Assembly (NCBI RefSeq): GCF_030700245.1
Contig: NZ_JAUYZI010000022.1
Location: forward strand, 1-64,000
DNA from: Methylobacterium amylolyticum
GTDB taxonomy: Bacteria; Pseudomonadota; Alphaproteobacteria; Rhizobiales; Beijerinckiaceae
DNA length: 64,000 nt
Direction of reading: 5' to 3'
Made by a program: the position numbers and the translations under genes. Of the stretch, positions 14,383-54,492 are shown piece after piece. The stretch's first letter is position 1, and every line of letters starts with the position of its first letter. A model generated the notes under the pieces. The model worked only from the letters and a program-made list of their open reading frames with translations. It was not told the DNA's origin and did no database searches.

Positions 14383-15773
14383 TGACCATCCATCAGTCCC
14401 CCACGGCCTTCGACCGGGCGCGCGGCTACGAGGCGTTCCTGGCCGCGCACCAGAGCAAGGAGGTGCTGCGCTTCATCGCCTGCGGCTCGGTGGACGACGG
14501 CAAGTCGACCCTGATCGGCCGGCTCCTGCACGACACCAAGCAGATCTTCGACGACCAGATCACCGCCCTCCAGCGCGACTCCCGCCGCCACGGCACGCAG
14601 GGGCAGGAGATGGACCTCGCGCTCCTCGTCGACGGCCTCCAGGCCGAGCGCGAGCAGGGTATCACCATCGACGTCGCCTACCGGTTCTTCTCGACCGAGA
14701 AGCGCTCCTTCATCGTCGCCGACACCCCCGGTCACGAGCAGTACACCCGCAACATGGCCACCGGCGCCTCGACGGCGGACGTGGCGGTGATCCTCGTGGA
14801 CGCCCGCCAGGGGCTGACCCGCCAGACCCGGCGCCACGCCCTGCTCGTCTCGATCCTCGGCATCCGCCGCGTGGCGCTCGCCGTGAACAAGATGGACCTG
14901 ATCGGCTGGTCGCAAAGTAGGTTCGACGCCATCGTCGCGGGCTTTTCCGCCTTCACCGCCGGCCTGAACTTCGCCGAGGTCAAGGCGATCCCGCTCTCGG
15001 CCAAGAACGGCGAGAACGTGGTCGAGCCCGGCGTCAACGCGCCCTGGTACGCGGGCGGGCCGCTGCTGGCCTTCCTCGAGACGGTGCCGGTCCACGCCGA
15101 GGCCGCGCAGGCGCCGTTCCGCATGGCGGTGCAGTGGGTCAACCGTCCGAATTCCGAGTTCCGCGGCTACAGCGGCCGGATCGCCAGCGGCCGGGTGCGC
15201 CCGGGCGACGCGGTGACGGTGCAGCCCGGCGGCCGCGCCTCCACGGTCGCGCGGATCTACACCGCCGACGGCGACCTCGCGGAGGCCGGCGAGGACCTGT
15301 CGGTGACGCTGGTGCTGGCCGACCAGATCGACGCCTCGCGCGGGCAGGTGATCGCCGCCGCGGGCAGGCCGATGCGGGAGACCGACCGCCTCGACGCCCG
15401 CCTGTTCTGGACGGCGGAGACGGCGCTGAGCCCCGGGGCGAGCCTGCTCGCCAAGATCGGCACCGCGACGGTGGCGGCGAGCGTGGAGCGCATCGTCTCG
15501 CGCCTCGACCCCGAGACCGGCCGTCCGGAGCCGGCCGAGCGCCTGTCGGCCAACGACATCGCCGACGTGATCCTCGTGCTCGACCGCCCGGTGGCGGTGG
15601 ACGCCTACGCCGAGAACCGCGAGACCGGCAGCCTGATCCTGATCGACCGCGAGACCACGGACACGGCCGCGCTCGGTCTCGTCCGCGCTCCGGCCCCCGC
15701 CGCGGCGACCGAGCCGGACGCGGCGCCGGCCGGCGGCTTCCTGGCCCGCCTGCGCCGGGCCTTCGGCGGCTGA
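14382..15773 (+). CDS. cysN: Sulfate adenylyltransferase subunit 1 (GTPase)
   Basis: GTPase subunit that drives APS formation by CysD. EF-Tu-like: P-loop GSVDDGKST at 35-43, DTPGHEQYTRNM (G3), NKMDLI (G4), SAKNGEN (G5), then two beta-barrel domains. 463 residues, so it is the stand-alone form without a fused APS kinase (CysC). Ends in a short Ala/Arg-rich tail. It is the last gene of the operon, followed by a multi-hairpin repeat in the gap to a convergent gene. Confidence 0.97.
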   Translation: MTIHQSPTAFDRARGYEAFLAAHQSKEVLRFIACGSVDDGKSTLIGRLLHDTKQIFDDQITALQRDSRRHGTQGQEMDLALLVDGLQAEREQGITIDVAYRFFSTEKRSFIVADTPGHEQYTRNMATGASTADVAVILVDARQGLTRQTRRHALLVSILGIRRVALAVNKMDLIGWSQSRFDAIVAGFSAFTAGLNFAEVKAIPLSAKNGENVVEPGVNAPWYAGGPLLAFLETVPVHAEAAQAPFRMAVQWVNRPNSEFRGYSGRIASGRVRPGDAVTVQPGGRASTVARIYTADGDLAEAGEDLSVTLVLADQIDASRGQVIAAAGRPMRETDRLDARLFWTAETALSPGASLLAKIGTATVAASVERIVSRLDPETGRPEPAERLSANDIADVILVLDRPVAVDAYAENRETGSLILIDRETTDTAALGLVRAPAPAAATEPDAAPAGGFLARLRRAFGG

Positions 15774-15783
15774 GCCCGGGTTT

Positions 15784-15895
15784 CGGAAGGGCGAGCCCTT
15801 CCGCGGGGGGCGGGGCGGAGCCCCGCGATGCCAGGGCTTTGCCCTGTCCGACCCACCAAAGGGACTCGGTCCCTTTGGAAACCCCGGATCCGGGG
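15784..15895. repeat. Multi-hairpin intergenic element, copy A
   Basis: Series of hairpins: CGGAAGGG-CGAG-CCCTTCCG (15784-15803), CGGGGC-GGA-GCCCCG (15811-15825), AGGGC-TTT-GCCCT (15833-15845), CCAAAGGGA-CTCGG-TCCCTTTGG (15856-15878), and a CCCCGGATCCGGGG palindrome. Located between convergent cysN and the LLM oxidoreductase. Copies B (30719) and C (53694) keep the same order of stems with different, still complementary, arm bases. Confidence 0.85.
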
Positions 15896-29421: not shown

Positions 29422-30705
29422 ATGAACCTGGCCGACACCGACACGCGCAGTGCCACGAGCCCGACCACGGCGCTCCCCGTCGCGAGCGTCCCCGGCGTCG
29501 AGGCGTGGCACGTCGAGTCCCCCGTGGTGCCGATGATCGCCCTGTCCTTCACCTTCGAGGGCGGCGCGGCACAGGACCCGGCGGGCAAGGCCGGCTGCGC
29601 CCAGATGCTCGCCCGCCTGCTCGACGAGGGCGCCGGCGACCTCGGCTCCGACGCCTTCCAGGAGCGGCTCGCGGCGCGGGCCATCGAGCTGTCCTTCCAC
29701 GCCGGCCCCGACGCGCTGGGCGGCTCGCTGAAGATGCTGCTCAAGCACGCCGACGAGGCGATCGACCTGCTGGCGCTGGCGCTCGCCAAGCCGCGCCTCG
29801 ATCCCGACGCGATCGAGCGGGTGCGGGCGCAGGTGATCGCCGGCCTGCGCTACCAGCAGAACGATCCCGGGGTGATGGCCTCCCGCCGCTTCTTCAAGGA
29901 GGCGTTCCACGGCCACGCCTACGCCCGCCCCTCCTCGGGCACGGTGGAGAGCGTCACCGCGATCACCCGCGACGACCTGCTCGCCATGCACGCCCGGATC
30001 ATCGGCCGCGGCCGGATCAAGGTCGCCGCGGTCGGCGCGATCAACGCCGAGAAACTCGCCGAGAGCCTGACCCGCGCCTTCGGCGGCCTGTCCGAGGCCG
30101 GCGCCCTGAAGGCGGTGCCGCGCACCACCGTGCAGGATCTCGGCAAGCGCATCGTCGTCGATCTCGACGTGCCGCAATCGGTGATCCGCTTCGGCATGGC
30201 CGGCGTGCCCTGGCGCGACCCGGACTTCATCCCGGCCTACGTCCTCAACCACATCCTCGGCGGCGGCGCCTTCACCTCGCGCCTGTTCCAGGAGGTGCGC
30301 GAGAAGCGTGGCCTCGCCTACTCGGTCGGCACCTCGCTGGTGAGCCACCGGGCCGCGGCGATGACCTGGGGCTACACCGCCACCAAGAACGAGCGCGTGG
30401 CCGAGGCCCTGTCGGTGATCGGCGACGAGATCGGGCGGCTCATCACCGACGGCCCCTCCGACGAGGAGTTGCAGAAGGCCAAGGACTACCTCACCGGCTC
30501 CTACGCGCTGGGCTTCGACACCTCGACCAAGATCGCCCACCAGATCGTGCAGATCGCGTTCGAGGATCTGGGCATGGACTACATCGCCCGGCGCAACGCC
30601 ATGGTGTCGTCCGTCACGCAGGCCGACATCCGCCGCGCCGCCGGCCGCACCTTCGCGGACGGGCGCATGCTGGTGGTCGCCGCCGGCCGGCCGACCGGGT
30701 TCTGA
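29422..30705 (+). CDS. M16 family protein lacking the zinc motif (regulatory subunit)
   Basis: 427-residue partner of the upstream peptidase. Where HxxEH should be, the sequence reads [13 protein letters not shown], so it cannot bind zinc. It keeps the C-terminal Arg/Tyr pair ([15 protein letters not shown]) that active partners use to hold substrate. In heterodimeric M16 enzymes one subunit supplies zinc and the other supplies this R/Y pair. Gap to the first gene is 58 bases, same strand. A multi-hairpin repeat follows the stop. Confidence 0.92.
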
Positions 30706-30718
30706 CGAGACGGGGTGT

Positions 30719-30812
30719 CGAGAGGGCGAGCCCTCTCGCGGGTGCCGGGCCGCGCCCAGCGATCTTCGGGGCTCCGCCCCGAAAACCCCGCCGAAGGGAC
30801 ACGTCCCTTCGG
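30719..30812. repeat. Multi-hairpin intergenic element, copy B
   Basis: Stems CGAGAGGG-CGAG-CCCTCTCG (30719-30738), CGGGGC-TCC-GCCCCG (30767-30781), CCGAAGGGA-CACG-TCCCTTCGG (30791-30812). Lacks the third, smaller stem of copies A and C. Follows the M16 operon and precedes the dioxygenase gene on the same strand, so it may act as the M16 terminator. Confidence 0.85.
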
Positions 30813-30898
30813 GATCCCGTTTCCGATGCAGGGCTGATCTGCGCCCGCGCGGGCGGCGCTGCGCTTATCTGTGGCGTGGACTCCCCGAAGCGAACGCC

Positions 30899-51544: not shown

Positions 51545-53683
51545 ATGATCGCCCGCCTCGCCCTCCTCGTCCTCGCCTGCCTCGCCGGCCCCCTCGCCGC
51601 CGGGGCCCAGGGCCTGCGCACGCCGCCGGACCTCGTGCGGGCGAGCCTCGTCGCCGAGCCCGCCGCGGTGGCGGGGGCGCAGCCCTTCACGCTGGCCGTG
51701 CACATGCGGCTGAAGGCCGGCTGGCACGTCTACTGGCGCAACCCCGGCGATTCCGGCCTGCCGCCGGAGGTGACCTGGACGATGCCGGCGGGGTTCAGCC
51801 CCGGGGCGATCCGCTGGCCGGCGCCCGAGCGCATCCCGATCGCGACGCTCATGAACTACGGCTACGAGGACGCGGTGACGCTCCTCGTCCCCGTCACGCC
51901 GCCGCCGAGCCTCGACCCGGCCGAGCCGGTGCGGATCGGCGCCAAGCTCACCTACCTCGTCTGCGAGACCGAGTGCGTGCCGGGCTCGGCCGACCTGAGC
52001 CTGACCCTGCCGGTGGGCGAGCCCCGGCCCGACCCCGCCAACGCCGCCCTGTTCGCCCGCGCCCGCGCCGCCCTGCCCGTCCCCCCCGTGTGGCCGATGC
52101 GCCTGTCGAGCCAGGGCGACCGCCTGCGCCTCGACTTCGCCGCGCCGGGCCTGAAGCCGGAGGCGATCAAGTCCGCGGCCTTCTTCCCCTACTCCGAGAA
52201 CGCCATCGACAACGCCGCCGAGCAGGTACTGAGCGTCGATGCCGAGGGCCTGCACCTCATCCTCGCCCGCGACACGACCAGCCCGGCCCCGGGCACGCTG
52301 CCCGGCGTGCTGACGGTGGAGGAGGATCTCGGCGGCTCCGTCACCCGCCTCGCCTTCGCCTACGGCGACGAGCCCGCGGCCCCGGCCCCTGCCGTCGCGC
52401 CGCAGCCGCCCGCGCCGGTCGCGGCGCCGGCCGAGACGCCGACGCTGCTGGTCGCCGCCGCGCTCGCCTTCCTCGGCGGGCTGATCCTCAACCTGATGCC
52501 CTGCGTCTTCCCGGTCCTGTCGATCAAGGTGCTGGGGCTCGTGCGGCACGCGGGGGAGAGCCCGGCCCGGCTGCGCGGCCACGGGCTCGCCTACACCGCG
52601 GGTGTGCTCGCGAGCTTCCTGGGGCTCGCCGGCCTGCTGATCGCCCTGAAGGGCGGTGGCGCGGCGGTGGGCTGGGGGTTCCAGCTCCAGTCGCCGATCG
52701 TGGTGGCGGGGCTCGCCTACCTGCTGTTCGCGATGGGGCTGAGCCTGTCCGGCGCGGTTGCGTTCGGCGGCCGGCTCGCCGGGATCGGCGACGGGCTCGC
52801 CCGCCGCTCCGGCTACGCGGGCTCGTTCTTCACCGGCGTGCTCGCCACGGTGGTCGCCACCCCCTGCACCGCGCCGTTCATGGGCACGGCCGTGGGCTTC
52901 GCCCTGACCCAGAGCCCGGGTGTGGCGCTCGCCGTGTTCGCGAGCCTCGGCCTCGGGCTGGCCCTGCCCTTCCTGATCCTCACCCTGTGGCCGGCGGCTT
53001 TGCGGGCGCTGCCGCGGCCGGGCGCCTGGATGGAGACCCTGAAGCAGGTGCTCGCCTTCCCGGTCTACGCCACCGTCGCGTGGCTGGTCTGGGTGCTGGC
53101 GCAGCAGGTCGATCCGCGCGGGCTGCTGATCGCCCTGTTCGGCCTCGTGGGCGTCGGCTTCGCCGCCTGGGCGTGGGAGCGCGGGCGTGCGGCGGGGGCG
53201 TCCGGCCGGGTCGGGCAGGCGGCGGCGCTCGCCGCCCTCCTCGCCGTCGGGGTCGCCGCGTCGGGTTTGCAGACCGGACGCGCCGCCGGACCGGCGCTCG
53301 CCGCCGCGGACGGGATCGAGCCGTACACGCAGGCGCGCCTCGACGCGCTGGTCGCCGAGGGGCGGCCGGTCTTCGTGAACCTGACGGCGGCGTGGTGCAT
53401 CACCTGCGCGGTCAACGAGACCACCTCGCTCTCCACCAAGGCGGTGCGGAATGCCATGCGGGCGCGCGGCGTGACCTACCTCAAGGGCGACTGGACCAAC
53501 GCGGATCCGGAGATCACCCGCCTGCTGGAGCGCTACGGCCGCAGCGGCGTGCCGCTCTACCTGCTCTACGCGGGCGGAGGAGCGCCGCCGCAGGTGCTGC
53601 CGCAGATCCTCACCGAGGGCACCGTGCTCGCCGCCCTCGACGCGGTCGTGCCGGCGCCCAGGAGCGCGGCGCTGTCGCGCTGA
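51545..53683 (+). CDS. Thiol:disulfide interchange protein, DsbD/ScsB family
   Basis: 712-residue transmembrane reductase bringing electrons from cytoplasmic thioredoxin to periplasmic thiols. Signal peptide (IARLALLVLACLAGPLAAGA), N-terminal beta domain with the CETECVPG cysteine pair, an eight-helix transmembrane domain (NLMPCVFPVLSIKV and VVATPCTAPFMGTA supply the two membrane cysteines), and a C-terminal thioredoxin domain with AAWCITC. The N-domain size fits ScsB more than short DsbD. ATG 51545 begins the signal peptide. A multi-hairpin repeat follows. Confidence 0.93.
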   Translation: MIARLALLVLACLAGPLAAGAQGLRTPPDLVRASLVAEPAAVAGAQPFTLAVHMRLKAGWHVYWRNPGDSGLPPEVTWTMPAGFSPGAIRWPAPERIPIATLMNYGYEDAVTLLVPVTPPPSLDPAEPVRIGAKLTYLVCETECVPGSADLSLTLPVGEPRPDPANAALFARARAALPVPPVWPMRLSSQGDRLRLDFAAPGLKPEAIKSAAFFPYSENAIDNAAEQVLSVDAEGLHLILARDTTSPAPGTLPGVLTVEEDLGGSVTRLAFAYGDEPAAPAPAVAPQPPAPVAAPAETPTLLVAAALAFLGGLILNLMPCVFPVLSIKVLGLVRHAGESPARLRGHGLAYTAGVLASFLGLAGLLIALKGGGAAVGWGFQLQSPIVVAGLAYLLFAMGLSLSGAVAFGGRLAGIGDGLARRSGYAGSFFTGVLATVVATPCTAPFMGTAVGFALTQSPGVALAVFASLGLGLALPFLILTLWPAALRALPRPGAWMETLKQVLAFPVYATVAWLVWVLAQQVDPRGLLIALFGLVGVGFAAWAWERGRAAGASGRVGQAAALAALLAVGVAASGLQTGRAAGPALAAADGIEPYTQARLDALVAEGRPVFVNLTAAWCITCAVNETTSLSTKAVRNAMRARGVTYLKGDWTNADPEITRLLERYGRSGVPLYLLYAGGGAPPQVLPQILTEGTVLAALDAVVPAPRSAALSR

Positions 53684-53693
53684 AACGGGGTTT

Positions 53694-53785
53694 CGAAAGG
53701 GCTCGCCCTTTCGCGGGGGCGGGGCGGAGCCCCGCGAACAGCCAGGGCTTCGCCCCGGCACCCCACCAGAGGGCACGCCCTCTGG
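53694..53785. repeat. Multi-hairpin intergenic element, copy C
   Basis: Stems CGAAAGGG-CTCG-CCCTTTCG (53694-53713), CGGGGC-GGA-GCCCCG (53720-53734), GGGC-TTC-GCCC (53745-53755) and CCAGAGGG-CACG-CCCTCTGG (53766-53785). Between convergent dsbD-like and phoB genes, as copy A lies between convergent genes. Confidence 0.85.
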
Positions 53786-53796
53786 ACGCCCCCTGC

Positions 53797-54492
53797 TCAC
53801 GCCTCCGCGAGGAACGTCTCGTCGAAGGCGTAGCCCGAGCCGCGCACGGTGCGGATCGGGTCGGTCTGGCGGGGGCCGTTGAGCGCCTTGCGCAGGCGCC
53901 CGACATGGACGTCCACCGTGCGCTCGTCGATGTAGACGTCGTGGCCCCAGACCCCGTCGAGGAGCTGCTCGCGGGAGAAGACCCGGCCGGGGCTGAGCAT
54001 CAGGAATTCGAGCAGGCGGAACTCGGTGGGGCCGAGATGCAGCTCCTCGCCGCCGCGGCGGACGCGGTGGCCGGTGCGGTCGAGCTCGATGTCGCCCGCC
54101 GCGAGCCGGTCGGCGACGTGGGCCGGCTTGGCCCGGCGCAGCAGCGCCCGCACCCGGGCGAGCAGTTCCGGCACCGAGAACGGCTTGACGATGTAGTCGT
54201 CGGCCCCCGTCCCGAGGCCGCGGACCCGGTCGCCCTCCTCGCCCCGGGCTGTGAGCATGATCACCGGCAGGCGCTCGGTCTCGCGGCGCGCCCGGATGCG
54301 GCGGCACAGCTCGATTCCCGACAGGCCGGGCAGCATCCAGTCGAGCAGCACGAGGTCGGGGACGCGCTCGGCCAGCAGGATCTCGGCCTCGTCGCCGCGG
54401 GCGGCCGCATCGACGGCGAAGCCCTCGGCCTCCAGGTTGTAGCGCAGGAGCGTCGCCAGCGCCTCCTCGTCCTCGACGATCAGGACACGCAT
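53797..54492 (-). CDS. phoB: Phosphate regulon response regulator PhoB
   Basis: 231-residue OmpR-type regulator. Receiver domain at 1-120: phospho-acceptor D51 (LVLLDWMLPG), T81 and K103 (YIVKPF). Winged-helix DNA-binding domain at about 130-228 with GPTEFRLLEFLM and RTVDVHVGRLRKAL. ATG 54492 opens MRVLIVEDEE; GTG 54501 would add three residues. Last gene of pstSCAB-phoU-phoB, 26 bases after phoU. Activates genes at Pho boxes such as the one before pstS. No phoR kinase gene is in the window. Confidence 0.95.
   Translation of the reverse strand: MRVLIVEDEEALATLLRYNLEAEGFAVDAAARGDEAEILLAERVPDLVLLDWMLPGLSGIELCRRIRARRETERLPVIMLTARGEEGDRVRGLGTGADDYIVKPFSVPELLARVRALLRRAKPAHVADRLAAGDIELDRTGHRVRRGGEELHLGPTEFRLLEFLMLSPGRVFSREQLLDGVWGHDVYIDERTVDVHVGRLRKALNGPRQTDPIRTVRGSGYAFDETFLAEA

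Follow-up and report, generated by a model that had tools for sequence, protein, structure and literature searches.

A dispersed four-hairpin element found beside stop codons in Methylobacterium

A stretch of 64,000 nucleotides from Methylobacterium amylolyticum (the window; contig C52 of a 6.57 Mb source genome) contains three copies of a repeat composed of several hairpins. From the sequence alone, it had been proposed that the hairpin arms differ between copies and stay paired, and that this indicates selection on structure. The locus raises two questions. What keeps the arms complementary, and why is the element found where genes end?

Anatomy of the element

All three copies were found where the original prediction placed them (Table 1), and a covariance model detected no fourth in the window up to E = 1. 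The stem letters quoted for copies A, B and C (e.g. GGAAGGG, GAGAGGG and GAAAGGG) were correct. So was the gene context; A and C separate convergent genes, and B follows a gene whose downstream neighbour is codirectional. Single strands of the copies folded better than dinucleotide shuffles, for both strands (z −3.1 to −5.9).

Table 1. Copies of the element in the window, with their hairpins and neighbouring genes, and positions of two other inverted-repeat families in genome G005.
Feature	Position	Strand	Remarks
Copy A	15771..15893	+	Between convergent genes; model span
Copy A, upstream neighbour: EF-Tu-type GTPase gene	3' end 15773	+	
Copy A, facing neighbour: luciferase-like monooxygenase gene	3' end 15904	-	
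Copy A, H1	15784..15803	+	CGGAAGGG-CGAG-CCCTTCCG; pairs counted
Copy A, H2	15810..15826	+	Loop GGA
Copy A, H3	15832..15846	+	Loop TTT
Copy A, H4	15856..15878	+	CCAAAGGGAC..GTCCCTTTGG
Copy B	30705..30827	+	Between tandem genes; span starts on last base of upstream gene
Copy B, upstream neighbour: M16 peptidase-like gene	ends 30705	+	
Copy B, downstream neighbour: glyoxalase-family gene	starts 30899	+	
Copy B, H1	30719..30738	+	CGAGAGGG-CGAG-CCCTCTCG
Copy B, H2	30744..30760	+	One C.A mismatch
Copy B, H3	30765..30783	+	Loop TCC
Copy B, H4	30791..30812	+	
Copy C	53681..53800	+	Between convergent genes
Copy C, upstream neighbour: DsbD-like gene	ends 53683	+	
Copy C, facing neighbour: response regulator gene	3' end 53797	-	
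Copy C, H1	53694..53713	+	Loop CTCG
Copy C, H2	53719..53735	+	Loop GGA
Copy C, H3	53741..53759	+	One A.C mismatch
Copy C, H4	53766..53785	+	CCAGAGGG-CACG-CCCTCTGG
Second palindromic family, G005	L190 15357-15397, 19465-19511; L192 3753-3793; L193 9615-9653		
Third inverted-repeat motif, G005	L192 19905-19931; L195 16364-16389; L197 14983-15008		

The element is ~120 bases long and has four hairpins (H1 to H4) plus two closing stems (P0 and P1). In one orientation, its parts are a terminal arm (AAGTCC.GGTTTC), H1 (C-G-AAAGGN..NCCTTT-C-G), CGGGT, H2 (AGGGC-RGA-GCCCT), a linker, H3 (loop mostly YCY), ACCCG, H4 (CCAAAGGG..CCCTTTGG) and a terminal arm. Reverse-complemented, H3-H4 is a variant form of H1-H2. 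The whole element nearly matches its reverse complement; the best 25 copies in the source genome all match on the other strand too. The element is therefore an inverted dimer of a two-hairpin unit. Each half is a unit of ~55 nt, in which the outer hairpin has an A/T base (AAAGG..CCTTT) and the inner one is a GC hairpin whose loop is RGA. The halves are joined head to head. Single units also exist, and one site holds one unit only in three species. An extra inner hairpin is present in some copies (L043, L060, L242 and L269).

Among 203 distinct copies, AAAGG occurs in H1 of 173 and CCTTT in H4 of 132. The host genomes are GC-rich (sampled stretches are nearly all 65–72% G+C). The H2 loop is GGA or AGA in 160/203 copies, and the complements of both are found in none. 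The original prediction had further stated that the loop CGAG, or its complement CTCG, is conserved. This does not hold generally; the inner letters of H1 are GA in 101/203 copies and TC, as in copy C, in 2/203. AAGTCC.GGTTTC is the majority motif at both ends, forming a terminal inverted repeat that has decayed in many copies. Kissing of the H2 and H3 loops was not significant (p 0.07).

Other inverted repeats were noted in the same material. A second palindromic family (GAGCATCGTCC..GGACGATGCTC, arms of 17–21 bp) is present in G005. A third motif (CCCTCTCCCCGC..GCGGGGAGAGGG) occurs at 1781-1851 of the window and in G005, and a form of it lies within the longest of the window's listed inverted repeats.

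Pairing, covariation and constraint

Watson-Crick pairing in the 203 copies is 98% for H1, 97% for H2, 94% for H3 and H4, 92% for P1 and 63% for P0. Several stem letters vary freely as long as they are paired. In alignment A2, 19 pairs changed on both sides, compared with 10.1 in shuffles, and 64 cells did so, compared with 24.5 (0 of 500 shuffles reached either value); these counts lean on alignments fitted to the covariance model. Further pair types were not above shuffles (38 vs 36.4, with 152 of 500 as high).

Shared descent was controlled for by comparing one pair of species at each of 33 orthologous loci, which gave 969 hairpin cells. In H1-H4 there were 44 two-sided changes, against 6.9 expected if the arms were independent, and 76 one-sided changes, against 150 expected. 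Two-sided changes thus exceed shared descent, and 36 of the 44 led from one Watson-Crick pair to another. The covariation is real for the four hairpins. P1 had no two-sided change in 132 cells, and P0 had 36 compared with 27 expected, so that covariation of P0 is without support. A cloverleaf or tRNA-like RNA held together by P0 and P1 is ruled out, as a covarying whole, by these two results.

The hairpins also differ from P0 in rate. At the 33 loci, divergence per site was 0.085 in hairpins and 0.289 in P0, for copies found by model or exact pattern, a search that favours intact hairpins. Hence, we made a second comparison with copies located by synteny, flanks or a cross-site DNA query. In ten such comparisons at five loci, all of them sites with a full element (lost, halved and degenerate sites fall outside), divergence was 0.059 in hairpins and 0.250 in P0. 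The same comparisons, which share G005 copies, contained 5 two-sided changes compared with 1.0 expected. Where a copy is retained, its hairpins evolve at a third to a quarter of the rate of P0. It is therefore doubtful that these copies are dead insertions. Taken together, selection on structure is borne out for the four local hairpins, by their excess of two-sided changes and their slower divergence in retained copies, and is not supported for the closing stems P0 and P1.

We then compared G-U with A-C cells. H1-H4 of all copies hold 72 G-U and 86 A-C cells; in H3 alone, A-C is the commoner (38 vs 13). Leaving out P0, 122 copies gave 62 G-U and 70 A-C cells. In P0 of all copies, G-U (213) outnumbered A-C (102), much of this coming from the innermost pair. 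On the transcribed strand of tandem copies we counted 41 G-U and 52 A-C cells in the hairpins and P1, and 71 and 66, respectively, in P0. For comparison, eight predicted tRNAs, one of them doubtful, from the G005 and G018 stretches had 8 G-U and no A-C in 172 pairs. Because the transcribed strand of tandem copies has no G-U surplus, RNA as the sole cause of the covariation is not supported. Post hoc, with H1-H4 read in the sense of each unit, there were 83 G-U and 55 A-C distinct events (p 0.02, uncorrected); for convergent copies in unit sense the counts were 33 and 17 (p 0.03, uncorrected). The tandem halves were not significant (19 vs 15 distinct events in the proximal half and 19 vs 13 in the other). 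We read the pairing as kept mainly as DNA complementarity, with an RNA component that is weak at most.

Distribution, placement and turnover

As the original prediction had suggested, a covariance model built from the three copies was searched over the source genome, and 56 matches were listed (both strands counted). A second model, built from 25 oriented own copies, was scored on 150 of 9848 candidates and identified at least 32 distinct places (E ≤ 1e-4), weak ones being counted without individual reading. E-values reached 4.6e-24. A strict pattern had 3 matches. In three complete genomes of the genus, at least 20, 23 and 44 places were listed. All these copy numbers are rough lower bounds, since 36–150 first-look candidates were scored per genome, of up to several thousand.

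Within the genus, 18 of 25 genomes match at E 0.001 and 7 do not, and matches per genome range from 0 to at least 88 among related species (both strands counted). The seven no-match genomes cluster together on a midpoint-rooted tree of one ~490-bp gene. Four genomes with a single match form another group of that tree, and their matches are one orthologous locus. In these four (G012, G020, G024 and G015; L045–L048), the single match overlaps predicted genes and consists of an H1-H2 unit, beyond which the sequence does not resemble the second unit. Genomes from other families of the order had no match (0/16). Of 99 genomes across the family, four have matches at E 1e-4; two are Methylobacterium, one (G127) belongs to another genus and the last (G155) proved, on reading, to carry a different repeat. 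In G127, at least 10 places were listed (L394 and L397–L405) and read as genuine or partial copies. Its two congeners had no match. Horizontal spread or differential loss is a possible origin of the G127 copies. The exact element pattern was present in at least 118 stretches; the 80 matches listed came only from Methylobacterium, Methylorubrum and one Beijerinckiaceae MAG.

On the main chromosomes of G005, G018 and G007, copies are unevenly spread, with two-fold clustering in each (simulated p 0.0016, 0.0004 and 0/20000, respectively). The listed copies of G005 and G018 are absent from the chromosome part opposite dnaA, which was located; for placing the terminus, the GC skew of 20-kb samples had too much noise.

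The 203 copies comprise 82 in convergent, 85 in tandem and 2 in divergent gaps, 27 that overlap a gene called by our own simple predictor and 7 at edges. Placement is not random inside genes. Intergenic length, sampled in the window and in parts of two genomes, would predict 21% convergent, 53% tandem and 26% divergent. Convergent gaps are thus over-represented, with 48% of the 169 placeable copies (those neither overlapping genes nor at edges). The median distance to a facing stop codon is 3 nt, and 68% of 249 sides, overlaps included, are within 10 nt. This closeness is no artefact of how the end was defined, because the terminal arm is also present on sides that face no stop codon. Occupied convergent gaps have a median of 7 nt beside the element, compared with a median of 95 nt for sampled convergent gaps. 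In tandem gaps, the element occupies the upstream half in 60 of 71 cases, and its orientation relative to the genes is even (43 vs 42). Of ten G127 copies read, eight lie 10 nt or less from a stop codon that faces them.

Elements are lost, and in some cases turned, at individual sites. For the copy C locus, a script covering one strand could align the two flanks at 15 of 30 loci; the element is present in 3 of the 15 and in none of the other 12, six of which retain 11–45 nt. Ten G005 sites were read in G043 by synteny. Four had the full element, two had lost one unit, two had no element, one was a shared single unit and one was not found. In G083, a remnant is left at the L120 site. Element-free alleles therefore exist; their flanks at the junction are too diverged to fix an insertion target by target-site duplication or empty site.

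Mean identity is 0.84 for orthologous copies, 0.77–0.78 for copies within a genome and 0.73 for unrelated copies across genomes. Concerted evolution by gene conversion is unsupported, orthologues (0.84) being more alike than copies of one genome (0.78). Since the closest non-orthologous pair is only 0.927 identical, there are no fresh copies among the 179 of full length. Of the full-length pairs at shared sites, 55 agree in orientation and 13 are opposed. One Leaf123 copy takes part in four of these 13, which are 0.88–0.91 alike; we read them as the same element turned in place. The remaining nine, only 0.66–0.75 alike, appear to reflect sites occupied separately or an element replaced long ago; they include the copy C site, where G013 and G053 have an element in opposite orientation.

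Two turned pairs locate the ends of the inverted segment. After turning, L123 (G005) and L429 (G068), from the four similar pairs, are identical at 29 of 30 hairpin pairs and differ at 6 of 10 P0 pairs. The same counts were obtained at a second site for L120 and L345, where the left junction letters are common to both orientations. Breakpoints of whole-element inversion thus fall inside P0. Inversion of a single hairpin loop, considered as a trace of template switching, was rejected as such; ortholog pairs provided one case, in H4.

Possible role and origin

The position of the element suggests that it marks gene ends. Our best reading, which we hold tentatively, is of a dispersed, orientation-blind gene-end element with one two-hairpin unit for each neighbour. 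We prefer a module of this kind, giving both neighbours the same two-hairpin 3' end, because position, symmetry, loop polarity and constraint fit it. Were the element transcribed, the transcript of any abutting gene would carry, immediately behind its stop codon, one unit in the same sense, whichever way the element is turned. Its likely job would be 3' end formation for the neighbouring transcripts. This could be an aid to termination, or an effect on RNA stability, with a block to 3'–5' decay and to read-through into a convergent neighbour. We infer that it was as a small repeat that the element came to be dispersed in the genus; it is now mostly inherited in place, with an occasional flip in place or loss of one unit.

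Bidirectional intrinsic terminators are one close comparison. They too lie between convergent stop codons, have A/T at the base of a GC hairpin and are symmetrical. Unlike them, the element has mostly 3–4 A/T, paired inside the stem, and has four hairpins that belong to a dispersed sequence family. No canonical intrinsic terminator (GC hairpin plus T-run) was called at copies A and C, the two scanned, and no T-run was called after the stem at either. Some other sampled gene ends have longer stems and longer A/T flanks than the element. An ordinary terminator is disfavoured because A and C have no T-run, many gene pairs are without the element, loss is frequent and tandem copies have no G-U preference. 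The same four points keep alive the readings, discussed below, of a selfish repeat and of template switching. Separately, terminator-like hairpins unlike those of the element were seen at L204 12992-13024, L193 14463-14496 and L200 18598-18632. These combine long GC stems with tracts of A and T, are centred 36–42 nt after stop codons and are symmetrical and ordinary-looking.

Among known repeats, REP elements are similar in several respects. One study describes the GTAG and CGTC superfamilies as dispersed palindromes that lie downstream of genes, chiefly in convergent and unidirectional gaps; families have alternative complementary stem letters and a patchy distribution, and CGTC elements are mostly head-to-head dimers that lack a dedicated transposase (PMC3733652). 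The likeness extends to gene-downstream location, head-to-head dimer, alternative paired stem letters and patchiness. Single REP units, by the same account, are 20–40 bp long, whereas the element here is a ~120-bp dimer with four hairpins. GT pairing is often present in GTAG REP stems (PMC3733652), unlike in H1-H4, where G-U does not exceed A-C. A GTAG tag lay beside the hairpins at 11/406 edges (2.7%), below shuffles (11.7%), and a CGTC tag at 40/406 (9.9%), equal to shuffles (10.3%). The Y1/RAYT transposase (PF01797) was found in none of 18 genomes, nine of them copy-rich; control genomes were positive in 5 of 14 cases. The missing Y1 transposase alone does not exclude CGTC REPs, because those, too, are reported to have no dedicated transposase (PMC3733652). 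A RAYT-driven REP is ruled out by the absence of the Y1 transposase together with that of REP tags.

MITE, ERIC and RIME-type intergenic elements are ~100–130 bp long. The present element resembles them in size, terminal inverted repeat, intergenic location and folding over most of its length. It is set apart from them, by description and with sequence compared to Rfam only, by the slow hairpins of retained copies, the distance of a few nt to stop codons and inversion in place. Rfam gave no match to the window at the gathering threshold; five loci searched at E up to 5 gave five matches, each far below the gathering score of its family. One query each of plasmid and phage records returned nothing. 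A composite transposon formed by neighbouring copies was also considered and rejected. The genes between such copies look ordinary by eye, and no parent transposon was found among them. We found no description of the element in the literature searched, mostly outside subscription papers and available in part, and the accessible text of PMC12306157, PMC3733652, PMC2817692 and PMC1590033 has no word beginning 'Methylo'.

The main rival, which we consider unlikely, makes the element a small interspersed repeat, selfish and non-autonomous, in the manner of a MITE or BIME. Its hairpins would be the substrate for its own copying, and copies would persist only behind stop codons, being harmful elsewhere. 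This would account for the wide range of match counts between related species, the tree group without a match and the patchy outlier genus with its two no-match congeners. The terminal inverted repeat, the nine poorly similar opposite-orientation copies at shared sites and the relatives' sites lacking the element or one unit point the same way. Dead insertions, however, should decay evenly, and the hairpins of retained copies do not. The lack of fresh copies, of a Y1/RAYT transposase and of any plasmid or phage match also counts against a selfish repeat, and the few-nt distance to stop codons looks tighter than mere exclusion from coding or promoter DNA would produce. A reading to which we give a small chance is an invertible, orientation-blind punctuation module, a repeat with no known transposase. 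It would put the same two-hairpin 3' end on both neighbours, spread and flip by template switching at its own hairpins, and have been adopted as a genus-specific gene-end signal.

Replication template switching might also act alone, as a mutational process that keeps arms complementary, in which case covariation says little about function. It is reported to homogenise the arms of inverted repeats and to invert spacers (PMC8604942), and to be able to maintain hairpins (PMC8794818). The dominance of changes from Watson-Crick to Watson-Crick, the equal rarity of G-U and A-C in H1-H4 and the whole-element inversions with breakpoints in P0 are consistent with it. Its chance of being the whole explanation is nonetheless slim; it leaves unexplained the low per-site divergence of hairpins, the conserved AAAGG and loop letters and the position at stop codons. 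Moreover, single-hairpin inversion is rare, and the common loops of H2 and H3 hardly ever occur with reversed polarity. Least probable, in our view, is a double-stranded DNA site for supercoiling, topoisomerase or a nucleoid protein where converging transcription ends. Such a role has been proposed for BIMEs in enterobacteria. Indifference to orientation and the lack of a clear G-U preference fit a DNA-level signal, as do the excess in convergent gaps and the uneven chromosomal spread in three complete genomes. Conversely, tandem gaps account for half of the placeable copies, a group within the genus lacks any match, and stem letters that are free provided they pair would be odd for a protein site.

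With dozens of copies per genome, many named strains and a tractable genus, the element is a natural data set in which hairpin selection, template-switch mutation and gene-end function can be separated at the same orthologous sites. It is also a warning against equating strong covariation of a bacterial repeat with an RNA; the hairpins here are almost purely Watson-Crick, and the transcribed strand of tandem copies shows no surplus of G-U. If the gene-end role that we favour is true, Methylobacterium, a genus used in biotechnology, would have an unannotated class of transcript-end signals.
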